A DNA stretch of 64,000 bases from Girardinichthys multiradiatus (lineage: Eukaryota > Chordata > Actinopteri > Cyprinodontiformes > Goodeidae), in the NCBI RefSeq assembly GCF_021462225.1, contig NC_061812.1, positions 44,187,363-44,251,362 on the forward strand. Direction: 5' to 3'. Within the stretch, counting starts at the first letter, position 1. Every line of letters begins with the position of its first letter. Below the pieces are notes generated by a model, which had not been told where the DNA came from, did no database searches, and worked only from the letters and a program-made list of their open reading frames with translations. The translations under genes and the position numbers were made by a program. Below, in pieces: positions 1,363 through 63,649 of this stretch.

Positions 1363-4300
1363 CATAGTCTCTATTTGAACATTTTTACTCATTATTAATT
1401 TAGTTTTTTATAGTTTGGACCCACATGGATGCAGAAAAGAACTAACATACAGATAAATATTAATAATAAAACTTAAAATAAATGACTCAAGACACTGACT
1501 TTAAAACAAACATCAGGACATAAACTGGCATGGCATGACAAGCAGAAAACAGAGTACTAACAGACAGATTTGAAAGTGAATTGTCTGACTACTGACTGAT
1601 GGCAGATGGGTGTGGAGAGCTGGAAGCTATGGCAGCTGAGGATATTGCTTATAGAAAAGTAGTTGCTATACTCCGCAACCTAAAAAAAATAAATTAGGAA
1701 CTCTTAAAATATCACATAAAAAAACTCAGCATTGTGCAACAGATCTTTTAAATTAACATGGCTGCATGAGATTCAGTGTGTCCTAGTCTGAAAAGACCTG
1801 CACACAAGCGCCATGGTAAACAGTAGGGAAACAAACTGTTTGGGAAAATCCAGATTTGTTAGAATTATTTCCATTAGCTACAATACAAATTTGTAAACCC
1901 TGCAAATATCTCTGCAGACTTGAAATCACAGACGGTACAATACCAAAAGCTTGTGGGTGTTAGGTTTGATCAGGGACTAAACTATACTTGTGATAAAATT
2001 GAGACATCCCTAACTTTGAGAGAAAGTGTAACATTTAAGGCTTTAACTGAATACCACAGCTGATACTGACTAAAACATTTCTTATCATACTGTCCGCCCA
2101 GTGCCTAGTGTGATCTCTCAGGATAGCCTTTAATATTACATGTGGCACTTGTCATGGTAGTGCAATGGATTACTGTTGTCAACTTTTGACCCCTTCCTGT
2201 CTCAAAAGTCCTCTGCAGTTTGGCTATTTATGTCTTTAGCTCTGGCAGAGTGGAGTTAAGAGGTCATTCACTGTTTTAGTTGCTCCAGAGTTAAGTTTAT
2301 GGAATCTGTCTTATTTATTTGAGAAAGCTCGAAAGTATTTAGATAAACTTAGCACAAAACATAAGAACATTTGTTTAACAATGCATCTTATCAACAAAGC
2401 TTACACTATTAAAAAGCTTGTTAATTTCATCCTATATGGTGCCACATTGTAATGAAAATGCTTTTGTGAATTGAAAAGCAGAGTTGAGTGTTTGGGTTGC
2501 CCCCATTAAAAACATGCTGAATCCTCTCTGCCAGTGCCAAACAGCTTTTGGCTGAGGCGGTGTGATTGTGAGGGGCGGCAGATCTCCGTCACTGGAAAAA
2601 CGCAAATGCAGAAAGGAATTGAGAAAAGATTTGGCCATACCACACCTCCCCTCTTAGAGACCGAACGATTCTGGTAAGAGAATAGGATGCCATCCCACAG
2701 AAGAGTGTGAGCAAGCTGGTGACCAGCAAACAGTTCGCCAATTCATTGAGGCCTGATACATACAAGAAATAAGGAAATGCTTTATTTGCATAATTTTGTT
2801 TGGTGATGTTAGTACACACATATGTCACTTTACAGTGCGGTTTCTAGAGATGCCTGTACAAAAGGTAAAACATTTCTGAGGGCTTAACAGGGCCGCAATC
2901 AGGAGCCAAGTTTATGCCAATGCTTTGGTAAAGCAATTTTGATTGTTGTTTGAGAGAAATCCAGTTCCAATTATTAAAGACAGCTTGTTTACCTCTAATA
3001 AAACAACCTATTAAAAATATGGATTCTTGTACTCAATGCCTAGAGCAGAATCTTTGGAGCAGCATCAGTCTTCATTTCATTTCATTAGGTTTGATGAGGG
3101 GATTGTTTAGAATAGGCAGCATGATAGCATCTTCTGCCTGCTAAGCCTGCTAAGCCTCTTCTTGTAGCTCGCACATCCCATCTGTTTGTCAGCCCTTAAT
3201 ATGAACGGAGCCGCTCAAGCTGAAAATGTGTTGCAGGACTAATGTTTACGAAAACCAGTTATCCTAATGTAGGCTGGAGCTAGCAGCATAATGCCTGAAC
3301 ATTGGGCTTCTGGCGTATTGTGCATGACAAATATATAAATGATTAGAAAAAGCAGTCTCTGGAGCATTTACTCACTGCTAATGGAGATGCAGTGTTTGGG
3401 GTGAAAGAAAAAAAGTGTGTTTGACTGTAATAATTTAAAGCGGGAGCAATGATGTAATGAAAAGAACTGTTTTTACATGGGCAGTCAATTTCAGCAACTA
3501 ACTTCATTATCGGGTCATGGACACATATTAGCAACTCTCGATGATGTTACTAATTTAAAAACCCTCATTTCTGCTAAACCAGCAGCAGTCAGTGTGCTTT
3601 TTAGAACAGCTAGACTGATGTACAGAAGTTGTGTAATGATGTGAATTACATTTCCATGCAAATTCTTTAAAATGTTATTTATGTTCAGGAAAATGGTGGC
3701 TTGCAACCCTCAGTTTGGGAATGAGTTACTGTCCTAAGTGAAGGAATTTCAGTGCCCTGGAGTCTTGTTTATGAGTAAGGGTGAGCCTGATTAACATATT
3801 CAGGGTTCCTACATAAACCGAAAAATTCAGGCTTTTTCTAGGTCTTGATAAGTATGGAAAAATATTTCTATTTTCCGACTTCATTTTCTGTCTCTGTGTG
3901 TTTTTACAGTCAACGTAAAAGAGGCACATAATTATTATCATCATCCATCCATCTCTAATAGCCTACTGTATTTAATAAAGAGGAATCTGAATTAGCTCAA
4001 ATTGGTATCGGCAGGCCAAAGCTTTACAGAAAGTCAGCCATAACATTCTGATCTGTGCATTTCTATGCTTAACATCTGACAGAGTTCATGAGACTGAGCC
4101 AAAATGCTTTTCTTACATTTCACCAAACCTACATTAGAGCACATTATTTCAATTTTAGTCTGACCTACCCAAAGGACATTCCTCTTGAAAGTTGTTTCCG
4201 ATGCAAACCTAAGCCTTCCTTCCATTTTATTTTTAGAAAAATACAAGTACTTCTTTCTCCTTAGAGTCCTTGAAAACAAGCCGTAATTGTTCACAAACTG

Positions 4301-5335
4301 TACTGCAATGAATGTTATCACTGAGCTCACTCACTGGAGGCTTCACAGTCTGCGATGTAGCTCTGGAGTTTTAGCAGTTTTTTTGAGCATTGTATGACCT
4401 GACCTCAGAGTGAACCTGCTGGGGTGCCCGCTCCTGGGAACATATTACACCGCTCAAGTTGTTGGGGAAGCCATTAGATCAGTTCCAAGTGTTGATGACA
4501 CTAAACATTTTACAGCGAGAAACGCTGAACACCCAACAGCTACATTTGTTTTTATATTTTATAGATATTTTAAGCACAATTTTCCAGAATGAACCCTGAT
4601 GTTTCCTTAAACTCTACACACAATCGGCATATATACATTTTACCTGCATTTACAGATTTTCTCCTTACCAAATAACAAAGTTCACTTGGTAAAAATCATG
4701 CAACCATAGTCTAAAATAAGAAAAGTCTGTCTTGATTGCCTTGTGGTGGGGATTTGTAAAACTTTAATCAATCATTTGTCATCCTGGTCTCCACAGGACA
4801 CTTTTTTTTTTTTCTTCTTGTCACGTTCCAATATCCTGCAGTCTACAACACCGCATCTTCTCCCAGTGAATGTTATCGCTGTGGGGACAAGCAGGAAGTT
4901 TTTCAATTTCGTCTTTGAAATATAAATGGAGGAATATGCAGAAGATTTTATCTACAGTACATGCGAGGACTCTGAGTGTTAATTAATTAAACAGCCCTGT
5001 CTCTTTACTTGGCTTCTTAATTACAAGTGAATTAAACAATGTCCAATGTGAATTGTGTCTAATCAGAGGAATAGATTTACCCAATTAAAGTGCCCTCTAG
5101 TCAGGAGGTGGGAGTAAAACATATGTCACAGCCTTGCTCATAAATCCAAGTATTGATTTGAGCTGAGAGGCGGGGTGAGAGGATTAATATACAGTGGGTC
5201 TTTCTCTGTTCTTGGAAATCTAAGAACCAATATACATAGAAATTAATGATTGGGAACCATGGAGTCATGACATATCTCTAAAGAGCTGTTTTTTTCAAAT
5301 TTGTTTTGCATTTTTGTGTGTAAATAACAATGTGA
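1363..5335. other. AT-rich intergenic region
   Basis: No gene, RNA or complete element is recognised. Open frames are short (under 100 residues), on both strands, and lack low-complexity-free conserved motifs. Some of it may be conserved non-coding sequence, but that cannot be judged from one genome. Confidence 0.5.
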
Positions 5336-5450
5336 CTTATGAAAGTATTTAAGCTTTTCCCATTTTGTTACATTACAACCTCAATCTTGTATGCAATTGG
5401 AATTATTGAAGTTTTATTTGAAAGACTCAAAATGGTGCTTAAATAATAAC
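5336..5450. repeat. Tc1-type terminal repeat relic
   Basis: The text resembles the inverted-repeat end of an old fish Tc1 family: a 'gaaagtatttaagc...' start, then a run reading like 'cattttgttacattacaacc', then 'atgcaattggaatt'. No transposase or partner end follows. It is probably a solitary decayed end. Confidence 0.4.
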
Positions 5451-6079
5451 AATTTGAAAAATGTAACAAGTATTTACTATGAAATCCCCAAAAATTCGAG
5501 CATTGTTTTGAGTTCAGCCCCACAGGTTTCACCTTGTTTTTGGTGTGGAATCCCCTTTATTCTGTCAAGAATGTTGGAATTCTAATTACACTTTTTAAGT
5601 TGATCCAAGCATTAAGAAATGAGAGGCATTTTATGAAACATCAACTCCTATCTAATCTTTTAAGTGTTCATATTGCTCAATATGATTGTTCTTTTTTCAT
5701 GCTTTGCCATGGTGTCTCCATCATTTTGTTTACCATACACAATAATAACCTGACTTTTTTGGGATGAGAGTTTAATGATCTGTGCACAGTCCATGAGTTG
5801 CCCCAAAAGGTCAAGAATGGTGCAGTATCAGTGCTACAATTACGACTATTGTGCAACCCGACGGTGGCTACTTCCTTGTTGCAGTAAGTACCCACCGAAG
5901 CCAGTTACTTATCTGACTAATGATAGGCCTGAATCGGTAAATGAGTGCCCCGAGCTGGCAAATAAGAAGGAGAGTACTCACTTGAGCTAACATTGGATAG
6001 GCTAGCTGTAGCATTGATGAGGCTAGTGACCAGCATGAATTTTTTCTTCTCCTTTTTAAGGGTAGATGTCGCAGTTCCG
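5451..6079. other. Intergenic, no supported gene
   Basis: Short open frames only. Nothing recognisable apart from a gradual approach to the fold-back region that follows. Confidence 0.45.
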
Positions 6080-16028: not shown

Positions 16029-17619
16029 CAGGTCCTTCTCAAAATATTAGCATATTGTGATAAAGTTCATTATTTTCCATAATGTCATGATGAAAATTTA
16101 ACATTCATATAATTTAGATTCATTGCACACTAACTGAAATATTTCAGGTCTTTTATTGTCTTAATACGGATGATTTTGGCATACAGCTCATGAAACCCAA
16201 AATTCCTATCTCACAAAATTAGCATAATTCATCCGACCAATAAAAGAAAAGTGTTTTTAATACAAAAAATGTCAACCTTCAAATAATCATGTACAGTTAT
16301 GCACTCAATACTTGGTTGGGAATCATTTGGCAGAAATGACTGCTTCAGTGCGGCGTGGCATGGAGGCAATCAGTCTGTGGCACTGCTGAGGTCTTATGGA
16401 GGCCCAGGATGCTTTGATAGCGGCCTTTAGCTCATCCAGAGTGTTGGGTCTTGAGCCTCTCAACGTTCTCTTCACAATATCCCACAGATTCTCTATGGGG
16501 TTCAGGTCAGGAGAGTTGGCAGGCCAATTGAGCACAGTGATACCATGGTCAGTAAACCATTTACCAGTGGTTTTGGCACTGTGAGCAGGTGCCAGGTCGT
16601 GCTGAAAAATGAAATCTTCATCTCCATAAAGCTTTTCAGCAGATGGAAGCATGAAGTGCTCCAAAATCTCCTGATAGCTAGCTGCATTGACCCTGCCCTT
16701 GATAAAACACAGTGGACCAACACCAGCAGCTGACACGGCACCCCAGACTATCACTGACTGTGGGTACTTGACACTGGACTTCTGGCATTTTGGCATTTCC
16801 TTCTCCCCAGTCTTCCTCCAGACTCTGGCACCTTGATTTCCGAATGACCTGCAGAATTTGCTTTCATCCGAAAAAAGTACTTTGGACCACTGAGCAACAG
16901 TCCAGTGCTGCTTCTCTGTAGCCCAGGTCAGGCGCTTCTGCCGCTGTTTCTGGTTCAAAAGTGGCTTGACCTGGGGAATGCGGCACCTGTAGCCCATTTC
17001 CTGCACACGCCTGTGCACGGTGGCTCTGGATGTTTCTACTCCAGACTCAGTCCACTGCTTCCACAGGTCCCCCAAGGTCTGGAATGGGCCCTTCTCCACA
17101 ATCTTCCTCAGGGTCCGGTCACCTCTTCTCGTTGTGCAGCGTTTTCTGCCACACTTTTTCCTTCCCACAGACTTCCCACTGAGGTGCCTTGATACAGCAC
17201 TCTGGGAACAGCCTATTCGTTCAGAAATGTCTTTCTGTGTCTTACCCTCTTGCTTGAGGTTGTCAATAGTGGCCTTCTGGACAGCAGTCAGGTCTGCAGT
17301 CTTACCCATGATTGGGGTTTTGAGTGATGAACCAGGCTGGGAGTTTTAAAGGCCTCAGGAATCTTTTGCATGTGTTTAGAGTTAACTCGTTGATTCAGAT
17401 GATTAGGTTCATAGCTCGTTTAGAGACCCTTTTAAGGATATGCTAATTTTGTGAGATAGGAATTTTGGGTTTTTATGAGCTGTATGCCAAAATCATCCGT
17501 ATTAAGACAATAAAAGACCTGAAATATTTCAGTTAGTGTGCAATGAATCTAAAATATATGAATGTTAAATTTTCATCATGACATTATGGAAAATATGCTA
17601 ATATTTTGAGAAGGACCTG
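16029..17619 (-). mobile_element. Tc1 transposon copy A, full length
   Basis: The element begins CAGGTCCTTCTC at 16,029, ends with the inverse at 17,619, and is flanked by TA on both sides. The inverted repeats are about 200 bp. Each contains an outer and an inner copy of a CCTTCTCAAAA.ATTAGCAT-type direct repeat, i.e. an IR/DR arrangement like that of Sleeping Beauty-type elements. The right inverted repeat lacks about 17 bp present on the left. It lies about 100 bp outside the retroviral 5' LTR. Confidence 0.93.
16323..17309 (-). CDS. Tc1 transposase, copy A
   Basis: A 328-residue DDE transposase that would cut and paste its own element at TA sites. The N-terminal ~110 residues form the paired-like helix-turn-helix region with a basic GRKKCGRKR stretch at about 50-57. 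The catalytic core carries D148 (in LFSDESKF), D238 (in QHDLAPAH) and E273 (in NPIENLW). The 34 residues between the last two give the DD34E pattern of Tc1. The start codon follows the conserved CCCCAATC leader shared by all three copies. The stop TGA interrupts a codon that copy C reads through, so this protein is 6 residues shorter. The frame is otherwise open. Activity is unproven, because several substitutions distinguish it from copies B and C (for example in residues 75-85 and 153-155). Confidence 0.9.
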   Translation of the reverse strand: MGKTADLTAVQKATIDNLKQEGKTQKDISERIGCSQSAVSRHLSGKSVGRKKCGRKRCTTRRGDRTLRKIVEKGPFQTLGDLWKQWTESGVETSRATVHRRVQEMGYRCRIPQVKPLLNQKQRQKRLTWATEKQHWTVAQWSKVLFSDESKFCRSFGNQGARVWRKTGEKEMPKCQKSSVKYPQSVIVWGAVSAAGVGPLCFIKGRVNAASYQEILEHFMLPSAEKLYGDEDFIFQHDLAPAHSAKTTGKWFTDHGITVLNWPANSPDLNPIENLWDIVKRTLRGSRPNTLDELKAAIKASWASIRPQQCHRLIASMPRRTEAVISAK

Positions 17620-25124: not shown

Positions 25125-26733
25125 CAGGTCCTTCTCAAAAAATTAGCATATTGTGATAAAGTTCATTATTTTCCATAATGTCATGATGAAAATTTAACAT
25201 TCATATATCTTAGATTCATTGCACACTAACTGAAATATTTCAGGTCTTTTATTGTCTTAATACGAATTATTTTGGCATACAGCTCATGAAAACCCAAAAT
25301 TCCTATCTCACAAAATTAGCATATCATTAAAAGGGTCTCTAAACGAGCTATGAACCTAATCATCTGAATCAACGAGTTAACTCTAAACACCTGCAAAAGA
25401 TTCCTGAGGCCTTTAAAATTCCCAGCCTGGTTCATCACTCAAAACCCCAATCATGGGTAAGACTGCCGACCTGACTGCTGTCCAGAAGGCCACTATTGAC
25501 ACCCTCAAGCAAGAGGGTAAGACACAGAAAGAAATTTCTGAACGAATAGGCTGTTCCCAGAGTGCTGTATCAAGGCACCTCAGTGGGAAGTCTGTGGGAA
25601 GGAAAAAGTGTGGCAGAAAACGCTGCACAACGAGAAGAGGTGACCGGACCCTGAGGAAGATTGTGGAGAAGGGCCGATTCCAGACCTCAGGGGACCTGCA
25701 GAAGCAGTGGACTGAGTCTGGAGTAGAAACATCCAGAGCCACCGTGCACAGGCGTGTGCAGGAAATGGGCTACAGGTGCCGCATTCCCCAGGTCAAGCCA
25801 CTTTTGAACCAGAAACAGCGGCAGAAGCGCCTGACCTGGGCTACAGACCACTGTTGGACCACTGTTGCTCAGTGGTCCAAAGTACTTTTTTCGGATGAAA
25901 GCAAATTCTGCATGTCATTCGGAAATCAAGGTGCCAGAGTCTGGAGGAAGACTGGGGAGAAGGAAATGCCAAAATGCCAGAAGTCCAGTGTCAAGTACCC
26001 ACAGTCAGTGATGGTCTGGGGTGCTGTGTCAGCTGCTGGTGTTGGTCCACTGTGTTTTATCAAGGGCGGGGTCAATGCAGCTAGCTATCAGGAGATTTTG
26101 GAGCACTTCATGCTTCCATCTGCTGAAAAGCTTTATGGAGATGAAGATTTCATTTTTCAGCACGACCTGGCACCTGCTCACAGTGCCAAAACCACTGTTA
26201 AATGGTTTACTGGCCATGGTATCACTGTGCTCAATTGGCCTGCTAACTCTCCTGACCTGAACCCCATAGAGAATCTGTGGGATATTGTGAAGAGAACGTT
26301 GAGAGGCTCAAGACCCAACACTCTGGATGAGCTAAAGGCTGCTATCGAAGCATCCTGGGCCTCCATAAGACCTCAGCAGTGCCACAGGCTGATTGCCTCC
26401 ATGCCACGCCGCACTGAAGCAGTCATTTCTGCCAAATGATTCCCAACCAAGTATTGAGTGCATAACTGTACATGATTATTTGAAGGTTGACATTTTTTGT
26501 ATTAAAAACACTTTTCTTTTATTGGTCGGATGAATTATGCTAATTTTGTGAGATAGGAATTTTGGGTTTCATGAGCTGTATGCCAAAATCATCCGTATTA
26601 AGACAATAAAAGACCTGAAATATTTCAGTTAGTGTGCAATGAATCTAAAATATATGAATGTTAAATTTTCATCATGACATTATGGAAAATAATGAACTTT
26701 ATCACAATATGCTAATTTTTTGAGAAGGACCTG
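25125..26733 (+). mobile_element. Tc1 transposon copy B, full length
   Basis: Runs from CAGGTCCTTCTC at 25,125 to its inverse at 26,733, flanked by TA (25,123-25,124 and 26,734-26,735). The inverted repeats are about 200 bp with the outer/inner direct-repeat arrangement, and the outer parts are complete on both sides, unlike copies A and C. It was inserted about 95 bp downstream of the GC island. Confidence 0.93.
25453..26439 (+). CDS. Tc1 transposase, copy B
   Basis: A 328-residue Tc1 transposase, same domain order as copy A: helix-turn-helix DNA-binding half, then a DD34E core with D148, D238 and E273 all present. Residues 132-137 read DHCWTT where copies A and C read EKQHWT. At DNA level this is a run in which GACCACTGTTG occurs twice in tandem with no change in total length, as if locally rewritten from a neighbouring template. 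The frame stops at the same early TGA as copy A. Both inverted repeats are intact, so of the three this copy looks structurally the most complete. The local rewrite lies just before the first catalytic aspartate and could matter for activity. Confidence 0.9.
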   Translation: MGKTADLTAVQKATIDTLKQEGKTQKEISERIGCSQSAVSRHLSGKSVGRKKCGRKRCTTRRGDRTLRKIVEKGRFQTSGDLQKQWTESGVETSRATVHRRVQEMGYRCRIPQVKPLLNQKQRQKRLTWATDHCWTTVAQWSKVLFSDESKFCMSFGNQGARVWRKTGEKEMPKCQKSSVKYPQSVMVWGAVSAAGVGPLCFIKGGVNAASYQEILEHFMLPSAEKLYGDEDFIFQHDLAPAHSAKTTVKWFTGHGITVLNWPANSPDLNPIENLWDIVKRTLRGSRPNTLDELKAAIEASWASIRPQQCHRLIASMPRRTEAVISAK

Positions 26734-28745: not shown

Positions 28746-28934
28746 TGCAGTTTGTCATTAGCCATGTGGAAGAAGGTGCTTTGCTCCTATTTATTTTATT
28801 TTTTAGTTCACTTTCATTTAAACAGGTAAATCTCAATGAGACATGATGTCTTGTTTTCAAAAGTGACATGTACAACTTGTTAGAACATGCTATAGTCATT
28901 ATATTTCATATAACAAATTAACTGAAAAAATATG

Positions 28935-29168
28935 ACAGACGGACGGACGGACGGACCGACCGACCGACCGACCGACCGACCGACCGACCGACCGACCGAC
29001 CGACCGACCGACCGACCGACCGACCGACCGACCGACCGACCGACCGACCGACCGACCGACCGACCGACCGACCGACCGACCGACCGCCCGACCGACCGAC
29101 CGACCGACCGACCGACCGACCGACCGACCGACCGACCGACCGACCGACCGACCGACCGACCGACAGAC

Positions 29169-38850: not shown

Positions 38851-40055
38851 ACTCCAGCTCGGCCTGATGTTATAGAAAGTTTTTCTCCTATTTCTTTAAT
38901 TGAGCTGGAAAAATTAGTGGACTCAACGAAAGCATCTTCTTGCTCTCCTGATATTCTACCTGCCCCCTTTCTTGTGGTGTCCCCCAAGTTTCTGTCCTAG
39001 GGCCCTTGTTATTTTTATTGTATTTGCTTCCTTTACAGCATATCCTGAGCACTTTTGAGGGCATTTCTTATCACTGTTATGCTGACGATATTCAGCTGTA
39101 TATTTCCTTTAAGCCTGAACATGTTTTTAAGTTACAGTTGCTGATTGTATGTTTTGAATCTATCAAAAGTTGGATGGCTGATAACTTTCTCCAACTTAAT
39201 GATGAAAAAACTGAAGTCCTTGTTTGTGCCCTTGATAGATTTATACCCAGGATAATGGAAGCTCTTGGTCCTCTTGGCAAATTTGCTAAATCTTCCATCA
39301 GGAACCTTGGTGTAACCTTTGACTCTGCTTTCTCCTTAGATACCCACATCAAATCTCTGGTTAACTCTTGTTTTTATCATTTATGTAACCTTACTAAGTT
39401 AAGTCCCATTGTGTCACATTCTGAACTTGAGATTACTATCCATGCATTAATTTCCTCACGTTTGGATTACTGTAATGCTTTATTTACCTGTCTTAGCAAA
39501 AACTCCCTGGAACGTCTCCAGGTTGTTCAGAATGCTGCTGCTAGACGTCTGACAAAATCTTCTAAGTATTCCCACTCAACACCGTTACTCATCCAGCTGC
39601 ACTGGCTCCCCATTAAATTCAGAGCTCAGTTTAAGATTCTGGTCCTGACTTATAGAGGTCTTCATGGTCAAGCCCCAACTTATATCAGTGAACTCTTATA
39701 TCCGTACAATCCCCCCAGGTCTCTGAGGTCGTGCGATAAAATCCTACTGGCTGTACATCACACAAGGCTGAAAACTAAGGGTGATAGAGCTTTTGCAACA
39801 GTAGCTCCCCGACTCTGGAACTCTATCCCCTTGTGTATAAGGACTGCAGATTCGGTGGTGTCTTTTAAAAAACAGCTAAAAACTCATTTTTTTAGGCTTG
39901 CGTTTGGTTAGTTTATTTTTGATTTTATCTTATTCTATTTTACATTTATAAATATATTATTCCAATTGTACTTTGTATTAGTGTTGTGAAGCACTTTGTG
40001 ATCTGTGTCTTGAGAGGTGCTATATAAATAAAATTTTACTTACTTACTTACTTAC
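38851..40055 (+). mobile_element. L2-like LINE inserted into the Rex1-like LINE
   Basis: A 5'-truncated, internally deleted L2 element. It comprises a short upstream ORF2 piece (SPISLIELEKLVDSTKAS, 38,880-38,940), a deletion junction near 38,985, the C-terminal reverse transcriptase, then the typical L2 3' end 'agcactttgtgatctgtgtc', 'gaggtgctatataaataaa' and a tail of ACTT repeats (40,035-40,055). The upstream and downstream host LINE halves join without loss, so insertion came after the Rex1-like copy. Confidence 0.85.
39006..39911 (+). pseudogene. L2 LINE reverse transcriptase, C-terminal 301 codons
   Basis: The frame is open from just before the catalytic motif to the end of ORF2. It carries [10 protein letters not shown] (YADD at residues 25-28 of this frame), then the L2-typical C-terminal stretch with [42 protein letters not shown] and the terminal APRLWNSIP...[11 protein letters not shown]. 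The endonuclease and first polymerase motifs are missing. Just before the frame, the PQGSVLGP motif reads VPQVSVLGP, so the glycine is lost. It is dead by truncation, although this part is unusually well preserved. Confidence 0.88.
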
Positions 40056-41075
40056 TCATTTGGAGAAGCATAATTCCTACGTAAAGGTGATGTGGATTTC
40101 AGCTCAGCTTTGAACTCCATCAACCCTGACAAGTTGGTGGAGAAGCTGGGGACCCAGGGACTAGGAGCACGATTGTGCTGGTGGATAAAGGATTTTTTAA
40201 CCAGCAGGTCCCAGCATGTCCACATTGGGCTCTTACCTCCTCCACAGTCACACTCAGCATAGGTATGCCCCAAGGCTATGTGCTCAGCCCTGTTCTTTAT
40301 TCCCTGTTTACCCATAACTGCAAGGCTACCCACTACAGTAACACCTTGTTTAAAAATGCAGGTGATACAACTGTTGTGGGCCTCATCAGCAACAATGAAG
40401 AGGGAGCCTATAGGGAAGAAATTCAAAAGCTGGCAGCATGGTGCAGGGAGAACGACCTCATCCTGAATACCAAGAAGATGAAGGAGATTATGCTTTGCTT
40501 CAGGAAAAGGAGGACAATCCCCCCAGAGCTGAGCATAGATGGTGAGGAAGTGAGAGGGTCAGCAACTTCAAATGTTTAGGAGTACACATCTCAAATGATC
40601 TCACCTGGAGCCTCAACGCCAAACAACTGATAAAAAAGGCCCAGCAGAGACTCTTTTTCCGAGAACTCTCCGATGGTGGGGTCTTCCCAAGGAGCTGCAG
40701 ACAAGTAACTACCTAGATACAATAGAGTCCATACTGACCTGCTGCTGCAAAGTGTGGTACTCTAATTGCATAGTTGCGGAGATGAGGAGCCTGCAGAGGG
40801 TTACCAAAACAGCAAACCAGATAATCAGATCCCCATTGGCCAGGTTTGAATACATCTACTCAGCCAGCCTGCTCAAGCGGGCAAAGTGCATCCGAAAAGA
40901 ACCTTTACACCCAGGACATTGTCACTTTTCCACCCTTCCATCTGGAAGAATGGGCGTACACAGGGCACGTACCAAACGGTTTAGAAATACCTTTATCCGT
41001 CAGGCTGAGAACAGTCTTCTAAACAACCCCTCTAAAGTAAAGCACAGGGGACAGTCAGGGTAAAGGTCCTGAGGG
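40056..41075 (+). pseudogene. Rex1-like LINE, downstream part
   Basis: Continuation of the Rex1-like ORF2: DFSSAFN-like start, GMPQGYVLSPVLYSLFTH, then AGDTTVVGLI where an active copy has the polymerase FADDT motif (the first aspartate is lost, so it is catalytically dead). Next come ENDLILNTKK, then after frameshifts SILTC...WY, AEMRSLQRV.KTA..I, and the LPSGR..V end. The frames are 40,175-40,579 and 40,752-41,063, with breaks between. An 80-bp fragment of the same family recurs at 47,884-47,963. Confidence 0.8.
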
Positions 41076-41645: not shown

Positions 41646-43240
41646 CAGGTCCTTCTCAAAATATTAGCATATTATTTTCCATAATGTCATGATGAAAATT
41701 TAACATTCATATATTTTAGATTCATGGCACACTAACTGAAATATTTCAGGTCTTTTATTGTCTTAATACGGATGATTTTGGCATACAGCTCATGAAAACC
41801 CAAAATTCCTATCTCACAAAATTAGCATATCATTAAAAGGGTCTCTAAACGACATATGAACCTAATCATCTGAATCAACGAGTTAACTCTAAACACCTGC
41901 AAAAGATTCCTTAGGCCTTTAAAACTCCCAGCCTGGTTCATCACTCAAAACCCCAATCATGGGTAAGACTGCCGACCTGACTGATGTCCAGAAGGCCACT
42001 ATTGACACCCTCAAGCAAGAGGGTAAGACACAGAAAGAAATTTCTGAACGAATAGGCTGTTCCCAGAGTGCTGTATCAAGGCACCTCAGTGGGAAGTCTG
42101 TGGGAAGGAAAAAGTGTGGCAGAAAACGCTGCACAACGAGAAGAGGTGACCGGACCCTGAGGAAGATTGTGGAGAAGGGCCGATTCCAGACCTTGGGGGA
42201 CCTGCGGAAGAAGTGGACTGAGTCTGGAGTAGAAACATCCAGAGCCACCGTGCACAGGTGTGTGCAGGAAATGGGCTACAGGTGCCGCATTCCCCAGGTC
42301 AAGCCACTTTTGAACCAGAAACAGCGGCAGAAGCGCCTGACCTGGGCTACAGAGAAGCAGCACTGGACTGTTGCTCAGTGGTCCAAAGTACTTTTTTCGG
42401 ATGAAAGCAAATTCTGCATGTCATTCGGAAATCAAGGTGCCAGAGTCTGGAGGAAGACTGGGGAGAAGGAAATGCCAAAATGCCAGAAGTCCAGTGTGAA
42501 GTACCCACAGTCAGTGATGGTCTGGGGTGCCGTGTCAGCTGCTGGTGTTGGTCCACTGTGTTTTATCAAGGGCAGGGTCAATGCAGCTAGCTATCAGGAG
42601 ATTTTGGAGCACTTCATGCTTCCATCTGCTGAAAAGCTTTATGGAGATGAAGATTCCATTTTTCAGCACGACCTGGCACCTGCTCACAGTGCCAAAACCA
42701 CTGGTAAATGGTTTAAAGACCATGGTATCACTGTGCTCAATTGGCCTGCCAACTCTCCTGACCTGAACCCCATAGAGAATCCGTGGGATATTGTGAAGAG
42801 AATGTTGAGAGACTCAAGACCCAACACTCTGGATGAGCTAAAGGCCGCTATCGAAGCATCCTGGGCCTCCATAAGACCTCAGCAGTGCCACAGGCTGATT
42901 GCCTCCATGCCACGCCGCAATGAAGCAGTCATTTCTGCAAAAAGATTTCCGACCAAGTATTGAGTGCATAACTGTACATGATTATTTGAAGGTTGACGTT
43001 TTTTGTATTAAAAACACTTTTCTTTTATTGGTCGGATGAAATATGCTAATTTTGTGAGAAAGGAATTTTGGGTTTTCATGAGCTGTATGCCAAAATCATC
43101 CGTATTAAGATAATAAAAGACCTGAAATATTTCAGTTAGTGTGCAATGAATCTAAAATATATGAATGTTAAATTTTCATCATGACATTATGGAAAATAAT
43201 GAACTTTATCACAATATGCTAATATTTTGAGAAGGACCTG
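41646..43240 (+). mobile_element. Tc1 transposon copy C, full length
   Basis: Bounded by CAGGTCCTTCTC at 41,646 and its inverse at 43,240, with TA on both sides (41,644-41,645 and 43,241-43,242). The left inverted repeat lacks about 15 bp (the TGTGATAAAGTTC block) that the right one has. Confidence 0.93.
41959..42963 (+). CDS. Tc1 transposase, copy C (full-length C-terminus)
   Basis: A 334-residue Tc1 transposase with the same domains as copies A and B and all three catalytic residues (D148, D238, E273). It reads past the position where A and B stop and ends FPTKY, giving the longest and probably ancestral C-terminus. Private differences include DVQK near residue 10, DSIF before the second aspartate (others DFIF), NPWD for NLWD after the glutamate, and KRMLRDS for KRTLRGS. 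The NPWD change sits next to the catalytic glutamate and may weaken it. Confidence 0.9.
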   Translation: MGKTADLTDVQKATIDTLKQEGKTQKEISERIGCSQSAVSRHLSGKSVGRKKCGRKRCTTRRGDRTLRKIVEKGRFQTLGDLRKKWTESGVETSRATVHRCVQEMGYRCRIPQVKPLLNQKQRQKRLTWATEKQHWTVAQWSKVLFSDESKFCMSFGNQGARVWRKTGEKEMPKCQKSSVKYPQSVMVWGAVSAAGVGPLCFIKGRVNAASYQEILEHFMLPSAEKLYGDEDSIFQHDLAPAHSAKTTGKWFKDHGITVLNWPANSPDLNPIENPWDIVKRMLRDSRPNTLDELKAAIEASWASIRPQQCHRLIASMPRRNEAVISAKRFPTKY

Positions 43241-47070: not shown

Positions 47071-47418
47071 AGTGGTATAGAAGAGGAAGGCTTCAGGCTG
47101 AGGTAGAAGGACCTGTCAGTTCAGTAACGTGTACTTTGTGTTGCTGAATCTAATTCAGTTATACTAAGATTAAAGCCTTGCAATAAAAAAAAATAAACAA
47201 TCCTCTTGTAGGCATGTTATTTCTCCCATCATGCAGAAAATGTCTCAATCAAAAAACAATAAAATGGAAGGGATCAAATGTCTGCAGTATTATGTGAGTA
47301 AAAAACATACATTCATAAAATGCGCATGCTGTATATCCTGCCAAAACTGCAGGGAAAACAAGCTTCTCCTTGAAACTAAGATGCAGTCTGACATCTACGG
47401 TGGCCGGGGGGTGCAAAA

Positions 47419-47679
47419 CACTTTTACAAGTACCGAAACAAATTTACATTTTAGAAAACACTTTTACATTTCAGAAAACAAATTTACATTTCAGAAAACA
47501 ATTTAACAAGATGCGGAACAAATTTACATTTCAGAAAACAAATTTACATTTCAGAAAACACTTTTACATTTCAGAAAACAAATTTACATTTCAGAAAACA
47601 CTTTTACATTTCAGAAAACAAATTTACATTTCAGAAAACAAATTTACATTTCAGAAAACACTTTTACATTTCAGAAAAT
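47419..47679 (+). repeat. 20-bp tandem array, left arm
   Basis: About 13 units of 20 bp alternate irregularly between AAATTTACATTTCAGAAAAC and ACTTTTACATTTCAGAAAAC. The outermost unit ends ACAAGTACCGAAAC instead, and one inner unit (about 47,500-47,520) is degenerate. Confidence 0.93.
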
Positions 47680-47883
47680 CAACCGGAAAGGGAATGTACC
47701 AACGCCGAGGCTGACCCGGAAGTCAGCCTCAGGGGCTGCATCCTTCGAAGGCCGTATTTGTAGGCTGATTACGTTATAGCGCGGCAACAAAGGCTGTCCC
47801 AATTCATGAATCATTCCGAGCAAATGCTGCCAACAAATGTGTCCTTATTTTGCCCGATTTGAAGGATGGGTCGTGAGTATCCT

Positions 47884-47963
47884 TCTCTAATTGCATAGCT
47901 GCGGAGATGAGGAGCCTGCAGAGGGTTAGCAAAACAGCAAATCAGATAATCAGATCCCCATTC
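47884..47963 (+). repeat. Rex1-like LINE fragment inside the fold-back element
   Basis: Nearly identical to 40,762-40,840 of the Rex1-like LINE (coding for AEMRSLQRV...). It starts exactly at the inner edge of the left arm. It is either captured DNA or the product of a repair event. Confidence 0.85.
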
Positions 47964-48465
47964 CGGACTCCCAAGTTTAGCTTGCCTCACCGCCGGTAGG
48001 ACTGGCGAGGCGAGCCAGTTACTACGCCGGGAGCGGAAACCTCCGAACACGTCGGAGCACGTTTGAAATTAAGCGATGTCTAGATAAATCAAGCAGATAT
48101 TTCACGTCTACATAGTTATATTCCTGCACTAAAAACATTGTAGAAGTTAATTTGTGTCACAGAAAGTGTAAGTTTCCACAATTTCCCAGCTTTTGCTGCT
48201 ATGGTCCTCCATGGCTTCCCCTGCTTGACCAATCCGCTTCGAGCCGCAATGAATCATGGGAAATGATGGGCCGCGAAGGATACTCACGACCCATCCTTCA
48301 AATCGGGCAAAATAAGGACACATTTGTTGGCCGCATTTGAGGGAGTCACGGAATGATTCATGAATTGGGATAGCATTCGTCGCCGCGCTGTAACGTAATC
48401 GGCCTACAAATACGGCCTTTGAAGGATGCAGCCCCCTGAGGGTACATTCCCTTTCCAGTTGATTT

Positions 48466-48684
48466 TCTGAAATGTAAGAGTTTTCTGAAATGTAAATTTG
48501 TTTTCTGAAATGTAAATTTGTTTTCTGAAATGTAAATTTGTTTTCTGAAATGTAAAAGTGTTTTCTGAAATGTAAAAGTGATTTCTGAAATGTAAATTTG
48601 TTTTCTGAAATGTAAAAGTGTTTTCTGAAATGTAAAAGTGTTTTCTGAAATGTAAATGTGTTTCGGTACTTGTAAAAGTGTTTT
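48466..48684 (-). repeat. 20-bp tandem array, right arm
   Basis: About 11 units, inverted relative to the left array, with the same two unit types and the same variant ACAAGTACCGAAAC unit in the outermost position. Confidence 0.93.
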
Positions 48685-48709
48685 GCACCCCCCGGCCACC
48701 GTAGACATC

Positions 48710-61663: not shown

Positions 61664-63649
61664 CCGTATTTTCCGCACTATAAGGCGCACCTTCAATGAA
61701 TGCCCTATTTTAGAACTTTTTTCATATATAGGGCGCACCGGATTATAAGGCGCATAGAATAGAAGCTACTGCAGTCAAACGTTTGCATCCACTAGACGGA
61801 GCTGTGCTAAAGAGAATGTCAACAAAACAGTCAGATAAGTCAGTCAAACTTTATTAATACACTACAAACCAGCATACGTATAAAACGTAGTTAGTGCATT
61901 CACAATAACTCAACGTTGTTCAAACGTTAATGTGCATATTCACAATATCTCCCAGCCTTGTTCAGTTGTAAACATGTAAAATAAACACAGTCTGATACCG
62001 CTAAATCAAACGTTAGTGCATAACTCAACATTGTTCAGTTACGGTATGTATATAATACGTAAAGCTCACTTTTTCAGTTTATTCCTCGTCCACGAATCCC
62101 TCGAATTCTTCTTCTTCAGTGTCCGAATTGAACAGTTGGGCGATTGCGGCATCCAACATGCCCGGCTCCCTCTCGTCATTATCAGAGTCAGTGTCGCTGC
62201 TGTTGCCTGGCGGTTCAGTGATTATTCCTGCCTTCTTGAAAGCTCGGACCACAGTTGAGACTGATATATCAGCCCAGGCATCCACGATCCACTGGCAGAT
62301 AGTGGCGTAAGTCGCCCGGCATTGTCTCCCTGTCTTGGTGAATGTGTGTTCGCCTTCTGTCATCCACTGCTCCCACGCAGCTCGCAGTCTAGCTTTGAAC
62401 GGCTTGTTGACACCAATATCTAGTGGCTGGAGTTCTTTAGTTAATCCACCCGGAATGACTGCAAGCTCCGAATTAGTTTTCTTCACTTGTTTTTTGACAC
62501 CATCGGTGATATGGGCGCGCATGGAGTCGTTAATCAATAGGGACGGAGCTGTGTGAAAAAAGCCACCCGGTCTCTTGACGTAAATTTCTCTCAGCCATTC
62601 ACTCATCATGTTCTCATCCATCCATCCCTTTGAGTTAGCTTTGATGACGACGCCGGCTGGAAAGTTTTGTTTTGGCAAGGTCTTCCTCTTAAAAATAACC
62701 ATGGGTGGAAGTTTCTGGCCATTAGCCTGGCAGGCGAGAACTACAGTGAAGGATGACTTCTCATTCCCTGTGGTGCGTATAGACACTGTACCGGTCCCTG
62801 TTTTCTCCACAGTGCGGTTCACGGGAATATCAAAGGTGAGTGGAACCTCGTCCATGTTGGTGATGTGCTCTGGCCGGATCTTCTTTTCAGTGATCTTGTT
62901 TTTGCAGTATGCGCGGAACGTGGCCAGCTTTTCTTGGTAATCTTTTGGCAGTTGCTGCGAGATGGTAGTTCGTGTGCGGATGGAGAGATTATGTCTTTTC
63001 ATAAAACAAAAACACCAAGAAGGACCACCTTGAAATTCATTGATGTTCATGTCCTGTGCTAGCGCTTTTGCCTTCATACGAACAGTGACTGTAGAGACGC
63101 TTCTACTTGCTGCTCTCTGTTCAACAACCCACTGTTCGAGTTTGTCCTCTAACTGTGGCCATCTCGCTTTATTCCCTCGGAAACTCTTTTTAGTCTTGTT
63201 TACTTGGCACAGGTCATCTTCTTGCTTCCTCCACTTCCGTACCATTGATTCATTAATGTTGAATTCTCTCGCTGCTGCTCTATTACCATGTTCGACTGCG
63301 TTGCTGACAGCCTTGAGTTTGAACTCAGCATTGTAAGCGTGTCTCTTGAAAGGTGCCATTTTGGGGTCGTTATACACACACAAGTGGTGTTGGACTATGA
63401 GTAAGCACAGTACAGGTGTTTGCCGCTATTACTTCGGCGATGCCCCTGACTACGGTAGCCGTAATGCTGCAAGCGGTGCGGCTTTGTAGTTTACCAGTTG
63501 TACTGAAACATTTTGACAGAGCGCCGTGTACAACCAGTATGAATTAACCAATTGATCCATATATAAGGCGCTCCGGATTACAAGACACACTGTCATTTTT
63601 TGAGAAAATTAAAGGTTTTTAAGTGCGCCTTATAGTGCGGAAAATACGG
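61664..63649 (-). mobile_element. Pogo-like (Tc1/mariner superfamily) element, apparently intact
   Basis: A 1,986-bp element with inverted ends CCGTATTTTCCGCACTATAAGG (about 27 bp), flanked by TA at 61,662-61,663 and 63,650-63,651. Subterminal repeats of GGATTATAAGGCGCA/GCGCCTTATA type lie inside both ends. It carries one open transposase gene filling most of its length. Confidence 0.9.
62079..63359 (-). CDS. Pogo-family transposase, 426 aa
   Basis: A DDE-type transposase of the pogo group (Tigger, Passer, POGK-like), expected to cut and paste the element at TA. Residues 1-50 are a helix-turn-helix of the kind found at the N-terminus of pogo/CENP-B-related proteins (HAYNAEFKLKAV...MVRKWRKQE). 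Residues 60-130 form a second, CENP-B/Tc5-type DNA-binding domain. Residues 165-320 are the catalytic DDE_1 core with D170 (NMDEVP), D278 (LLINDSMRAH) and D314 (LQPLDIGVNKPFK). The spacing of 35 gives DD35D. The acidic tail (SDTDSDNDERE, DTEEEEFEGFVDEE) is usual. I start at ATG 63,359: 8 codons extend the frame upstream, but MAPFKRHAYN is the natural start. No stop or frameshift is present. The host gene POGK derives from a related lineage, but here inverted ends and TA sites mark a transposon copy. Confidence 0.9.
   Translation of the reverse strand: MAPFKRHAYNAEFKLKAVSNAVEHGNRAAAREFNINESMVRKWRKQEDDLCQVNKTKKSFRGNKARWPQLEDKLEQWVVEQRAASRSVSTVTVRMKAKALAQDMNINEFQGGPSWCFCFMKRHNLSIRTRTTISQQLPKDYQEKLATFRAYCKNKITEKKIRPEHITNMDEVPLTFDIPVNRTVEKTGTGTVSIRTTGNEKSSFTVVLACQANGQKLPPMVIFKRKTLPKQNFPAGVVIKANSKGWMDENMMSEWLREIYVKRPGGFFHTAPSLLINDSMRAHITDGVKKQVKKTNSELAVIPGGLTKELQPLDIGVNKPFKARLRAAWEQWMTEGEHTFTKTGRQCRATYATICQWIVDAWADISVSTVVRAFKKAGIITEPPGNSSDTDSDNDEREPGMLDAAIAQLFNSDTEEEEFEGFVDEE

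Follow-up and report, generated by a model that had tools for sequence, protein, structure and literature searches.

The 64,000 nucleotides of Girardinichthys multiradiatus DNA analysed here, which we call the window, contain, at 16323-17345 (-), 25417-26439 (+) and 41923-42963 (+), three long open frames in which Tc1-type domains (DDE_3, HTH_Tnp_Tc3_2) were recognised. A further open frame, at 62079-63425 (-), encodes 448 aa with DDE_1 and DNA-binding domains of the Tc5 type, and we take it to be pogo/Tigger-like. A LINE with reverse-transcriptase pieces lies at 38952-41063 (+), with RVT_1 matches at 38952-39911 and 40130-40579, and about 59 copies of the tetranucleotide GACC, followed by an AGAT array, occupy 28934-29168. 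The subject of this report is a near-palindromic block of 1308 bp with 44-bp ends that are identical (Table 1). It is flanked on both sides by GACATC, and when flank lengths of 2 to 11 were checked only 6 gave a match. Its arms hold tandem arrays of a 20-bp unit in opposite orientation, the second ACAAG unit of the left array lying at 47495-47514, and the unit has 20 matches in the 64-kb window, every one of them inside the element (mean of 0.02 in shuffled sequences). A first-pass annotation had described these boundaries, the matching ends and the 6-bp duplication, and they proved exact; its inverted arrays of 13 and 11 units, with the same outermost variant in both arms, were likewise recovered.

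Table 1. Parts of the foldback element and its flanks, in window coordinates.
Feature	Position	Strand
Left target-site duplication, GACATC	47390..47395	+
Foldback element in full, non-autonomous, with IS3EU-type ends, 1308 bp	47396..48703	.
Left terminal 19 bp, TACGGTGGCCGGGGGGTGC	47396..47414	+
Outermost left 20-bp unit, ACAAGTACCG variant	47415..47434	+
Left array, 13 units of 20 bp, outermost unit included	47415..47675	+
Remainder of outer (IS3EU-type) element end; the junction with the Harbinger falls between CAG and GGGCTGCATCC	47676..47732	+
Left arm, inner part, Harbinger-derived, breaking off at 47885	47733..47885	+
LINE fragment of 78 bp filling the deletion joint, 96% identical to window 40760-40837	47885..47962	+
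15 bp at the joint between LINE fragment and right arm	47963..47977	.
Right arm, inner part, Harbinger-derived	47978..48434	-
Right arm, remainder of outer (IS3EU-type) element end	48435..48465	-
Right array of 11 units, of which one has 18 bp	48466..48684	-
Outermost right unit, with ACAAGTACCG	48665..48684	-
Right terminal 19 bp, same sequence as at the left end	48685..48703	-
Right target-site duplication, GACATC	48704..48709	+

Folded alone as a single DNA strand, the element reaches -507 kcal/mol, as compared to -125 to -139 kcal/mol for six single-base shuffles and -126 to -168 kcal/mol for six other stretches of the window, and 404 of the 541 predicted pairs join the two arms. In the structural sense it is a foldback, with long inverted arms, internal tandem repeats and little else. 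The rest of the arm sequence had been described as unique, a view that we abandon, as most of it comes from a Harbinger and a LINE fragment makes up 78 bp of the middle. Within the right arm an ATG at 48210-48212 (-) opens a short frame that resembles the beginning of Harbinger's Myb-like second gene; the later remnant of this supposed gene gave no clear Pfam match.

The near-palindromic block belongs to a large gene-poor transposon family, of which it is a shrunken copy. Searching the whole genome (1.15 Gb, 72 contigs) for the 24-bp end with up to 2 mismatches gave 391+420 = 811 matches, whereas the reversed-pattern control gave 1+0, in agreement with the non-autonomous foldback-like family that had been proposed from the window alone. 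The end sequence had no match in viral contigs, and the array pattern none in viral and prokaryotic genome contigs. With the first 305 bp of the element as query, 1096 candidate places were returned and 40 were scored; 20 other high-scoring places were fetched and 14 of them extended, which together with the window copy makes 21 loci examined. Both ends were seen at 13 of the 21, with a perfect 6-bp duplication at 11 and a match at 5 of 6 bases at the other two, and the eight fetched loci with one end only were excluded from this count. Four further copies, chosen because their nuclease frame or the copy itself is long, all have a perfect 6-bp duplication, so that 15 of 17 two-ended copies are perfect and 2 of 17 match at 5/6, the duplicated sequences differing among copies. 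The duplication reading left out loci L001-L008, L043-L054, L057 and L058, and two end matches with 6 errors each (L010 at 3349, L028 at 3341) were dropped as spurious.

The arrays vary from copy to copy, as the first-pass annotation had anticipated. Apart from the window copy, the array scan covered 28 genuine ends, one more match having been set aside as spurious. An inner landmark is present in 24 of the 28 ends and absent in 4, and at the 24 landmark-bearing ends the arrays run from about 5 to 27 units and deviate by at most 3 bp from a whole number of units. The outermost unit is nearly fixed, as the variant ACAAGTAC stands at 37 of the 42 ends read; the five ends lacking it in exact form are both ends of copy L055, both of copy L056 and one of copy L059, this last one with one base changed. 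In L055 and L056 the 20-mers are fewer and diverged, which may represent the older state.

All six of the copies first extended are 4.9-5.4 kb long and have the same ends. They are 91.6-95.4% identical in pairwise matches over 3 kb, and their terminal inverted repeats (TIRs) extend 0.84-1.38 kb inward. L055 (4596 bp) and L056 (4301 bp) have TIRs of about 0.19 and 0.24 kb, respectively. As the two TIRs within each of the six long copies are 97.3-98.9% alike and the mean between copies is 96.2% (84 pairs), homogenisation within copies is mild. In the window copy the similarity of the two arms is only 91.6% over 179 bp, below the between-copy mean, indicating that they were not recently homogenised.

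Positions 1-490 of the window copy match 489 bp of one TIR of copy C20a, and positions 583-1308 (726 bp) match 769 bp of the other. The 78-bp filler between them had no match in the 26 loci compared, and its predicted source is a relative of the LINE at 38952-41063. These matches suggest that the window copy is a deletion product joined via the LINE fragment, and its structure would be the expected leftover of interrupted gap repair with filler DNA. An autonomous copy with the same ends, which the first-pass annotation had hoped for as support, was not found; two copies of about 8.2 kb, L059 and L060, were considered as candidates and rejected, as no IS3-like frame was seen by eye in their extra DNA, that of L060 being LINE-like, also as judged by eye. 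Other elements lie beside some ends. At L028 a retroviral envelope gene remnant (TLV_coat, 1.4e-5) occupies 3824-4537, and at L011 frames with DDE_Tnp_4 (5.8e-34) and THAP (1.7e-15) domains occupy 3274-5012 and look like an ISL2EU-type element; both were read as neighbours of the family.

The core of the six long copies contains a HARBI1-type nuclease, the DDE_Tnp_4/HARBI1-like enzyme that marks PIF/Harbinger, and relatives of it occur in many fish. In all six copies the nuclease carries the same three frame-shifting differences relative to the reading of L055, in which the HARBI1-like frame is uninterrupted (395 aa; DDE_Tnp_4, PF13359, E=3.7e-19). L056 has an open frame of 381 aa that is partly shifted and lacks the ADGGYP stretch (PF13359, 5.2e-18). 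A 25-bp palindrome in the nuclease was considered as a shared lesion and dropped, as it is open coding sequence in L055. The L055 core also contains an inverted, diverged (~71%) second copy of part of the nuclease gene (4043-4292 and 5298-5539); a similar inverted pair appears in the top matches of three of the six long copies and in L056.

The question is whether this nuclease is the element's own transposase, in which case the family would descend from PIF/Harbinger and would have gained its TA..TA ends and 6-bp duplications within that lineage. In favour of this are L055, which combines the same ends and a perfect 6-bp duplication with its 395-aa frame, and L056, which does likewise with its partly shifted one. 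The left end of the Harbinger points in the same direction: 40 of 283 candidates for it were scored, giving 39 listed matches besides L055, and in 20 of 20 flanks sampled from these it is bordered by the outer element. The empty site of a Harbinger insertion, which would speak for nesting, had 0 matches with up to 3 mismatches allowed. Against the nuclease as the element's own transposase stands the finding that the Harbinger end is also present in other surroundings. The inner motif has 482+514 matches in the genome (control 0), and of 20 flanks chosen from 100 listed places, away from listed outer ends, 11 are outer element (one partial), 7 are unrelated DNA and 2 are other sequence. All seven unrelated flanks precede a shared TGTCC-like terminus, and two of them belong to opposite ends of a single element, about 2.1 kb long, whose 3-bp duplication is AGA/AGA. 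This is the one independent pair examined, and such a duplication is not kept in the composites. As the same inner end is found in unrelated flanks, that Harbinger end exists on its own, and for this reason we demote the reading of the nuclease as the element's transposase, which we now regard as unlikely. Furthermore, the Harbinger-like inner ends of L055 are 197 and 218 bp away from the outer ends, and within the outer right end of both L055 and L056 a Harbinger-like TGTGTCC terminus is still recognisable by eye. Duplications of 0, 2 or 3 bp are given for Harbinger relatives (PMC12730594), and by its 6-bp duplication the family, taken as a whole element, does not fit PIF/Harbinger. For the nuclease, dN/dS from copy to copy spans 0.33 to 1.78 (0.61 for L055-L056) and shows no clear constraint, which is not decisive. 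The data rather suggest that the Harbinger core of the long copies is a passenger within a smaller outer element, about 0.4 kb in size, and that the outer ends are the ones by which the composite moves. A simple nested insertion with a CTG duplication was rejected, as CTG/CTG was seen in L055 only; the left flanks of the 20 other matches end in CAG in 18 cases and in CAA or a shifted CAGA in two. The missing empty site and the CTG/CTG pair private to L055 count against the nested reading.

The outer ends themselves point to a different superfamily. Written as TACGGTGGCC..GGCCACCGTA, they read TACGG..CCGTA in the window copy, which fits TAYGG..CCRTA, the termini that IS3EU families of fungi are described as having together with TIRs of >30 bp in the sections of PMC12730594 cited here. 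The TIRs of the eight copies measured are about 0.19 to 1.38 kb, and the 6-bp duplication is that of IS3EU/GingerRoot. Since termini and duplication match the published signature of IS3EU, we file the window element as IS3EU-type and non-autonomous. IS3EU has been reported in killifish (PMC12763893) and zebrafish (PMC4746887), according to excerpts of these papers. We thus propose, with a probability of roughly three in four, that the family is a non-autonomous cut-and-paste DNA transposon of the IS3EU/GingerRoot type, moved in trans by a putative transposase that recognises the TACGGTGGCC ends and produces the 6-bp duplications. Counting against an IS3EU assignment, the one nuclease frame that looks whole is the HARBI1-like frame of L055, lying inside these same outer ends. 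An IS3EU transposase with these ends was not found among 19 rve_3 hits, obtained by scoring 150 of 1748 candidates; the six hits on C1-C6 lie >300 kb from any end among the 100 of 811 listed, and several of the 19 are in frames of retroelement length. With this coverage the negative is a weak one.

Other superfamilies that leave 6 bp, hAT6 among them, fare worse. Families of hAT with 6-bp duplications exist, as excerpted from PMC12730594, and yet the termini TACGG..CCGTA match IS3EU, making such an origin quite improbable. Dada, in the part of PMC3706591 cited, is without TIRs and located in small RNA genes, whereas the element here has a perfect TIR, and neither a tRNA nor any Rfam family scoring above its gathering threshold was found in the window; Ginger, in the corresponding part of PMC2836005, leaves 4- or 5-bp duplications and has TGTNR ends.

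The first-pass annotation had likened the element to the Drosophila foldbacks FB and Galileo, and in shape the comparison stands. A true relative of these, whether Mutator-type like FB or P-type like Galileo, would have the long repetitive inverted arms and little coding content that are seen here, and the unequal unit number between the arms is found in Galileo as well (excerpt of PMC3573991). A THAP domain, as in the Galileo transposase, lies beside the end at L011, but together with DDE_Tnp_4. The duplication of 6 bp differs from the 8-10 bp of Tetris and the 7 bp of Galileo given in excerpts of PMC4079207 and PMC3573991, and a Mutator or P transposase domain is absent from the frames scanned. 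Common descent is thus very unlikely, and the likeness is one of shape only. Finally, a local and immobile inverted duplication of satellite DNA would account for a palindrome with tandem repeats, and the first-pass annotation had held that a single genomic copy or an inconsistent duplication length would point to it, but with 811 ends across the genome and 6-bp duplications whose sequence differs among copies this is refuted and we give it practically no weight.

Returning to the IS3EU-type reading, we infer the following order of events. The starting point would be a small element, each end of which had some six diverged 20-bp units and into which a Harbinger transposon inserted, and the composite would have remained mobile via its outer ends as the Harbinger nuclease decayed. 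One terminal region may then have been copied over the other, so that TIRs of about 0.2 kb reached about 0.8-1.4 kb, and the arrays would have expanded in the same period. The window copy would finally have lost its interior, the gap being closed by the 78-bp scrap of LINE, and almost nothing but the TIRs would remain. For movement, an IS3EU transposase provided in trans would attach to the array as well as to the terminal unit, with cleavage at TACGG and an integration stagger of 6 bp. By analogy, the 20-bp units beside the ends are probably extra transposase-binding sites that are gained and lost unit by unit; in Galileo, according to an excerpt of PMC3688188, the THAP domain of the transposase binds sites in the tandem repeats of the TIR.

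The family shares with non-autonomous IS3EU/GingerRoot members the termini, the TIRs beyond 30 bp and the 6-bp duplications, and differs from them in its foldback form, its expandable 20-bp arrays, its nested Harbinger and TIRs that reach about 1.4 kb. Long, internally repetitive TIRs with unequal repeat numbers, lengthened by gain of repeats and recruitment of inner sequence, are described for Galileo, a Drosophila element of the P superfamily, in the cited part of PMC3573991, but there the duplication is 7 bp, the transposase P-type and the repeat unit about 210 bp. Tetris, a foldback of Drosophila virilis, likewise has no intact genes and an array unit related to the outer TIR domain, but, as excerpted from PMC4079207, its duplications are 8-10 bp and its unit 220 bp. 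Teleost PIF/Harbinger elements share a HARBI1-like nuclease with the core of the long copies, yet have usually 3-bp duplications and TIRs of 25-50 bp (excerpt of PMC9179366).

Foldbacks have been proposed to arise from different transposon lineages through gene loss and TIR elongation, most examples being Mutator (excerpt of PMC4079207, citing Marzo et al. 2008), and neither a fish foldback nor an IS3EU foldback appeared in the titles and abstract starts among the literature matches listed. What our analysis adds to the first-pass annotation are the IS3EU-type ends, the nested Harbinger and a candidate series of intermediates. We consider it an evenly balanced proposition that the family is a foldback outside Mutator and P, of IS3EU type, in which subterminal 20-bp binding repeats became an expandable array, the TIRs swallowed the end of a nested Harbinger and the path from a composite with short TIRs to a hairpin without genes survives in one genome. 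If the IS3EU reading is true, foldbacks would have originated independently in a third, poorly known superfamily. The candidate intermediates, with TIRs of 0.2 kb, TIRs of 0.8-1.4 kb and sub-kilobase hairpins and with about 5 to 27 units, would allow the effect of unit number on mobility to be tested, and the relatives of the window copy suggest that this genome may show how hairpin-shaped elements grow from ordinary transposons.
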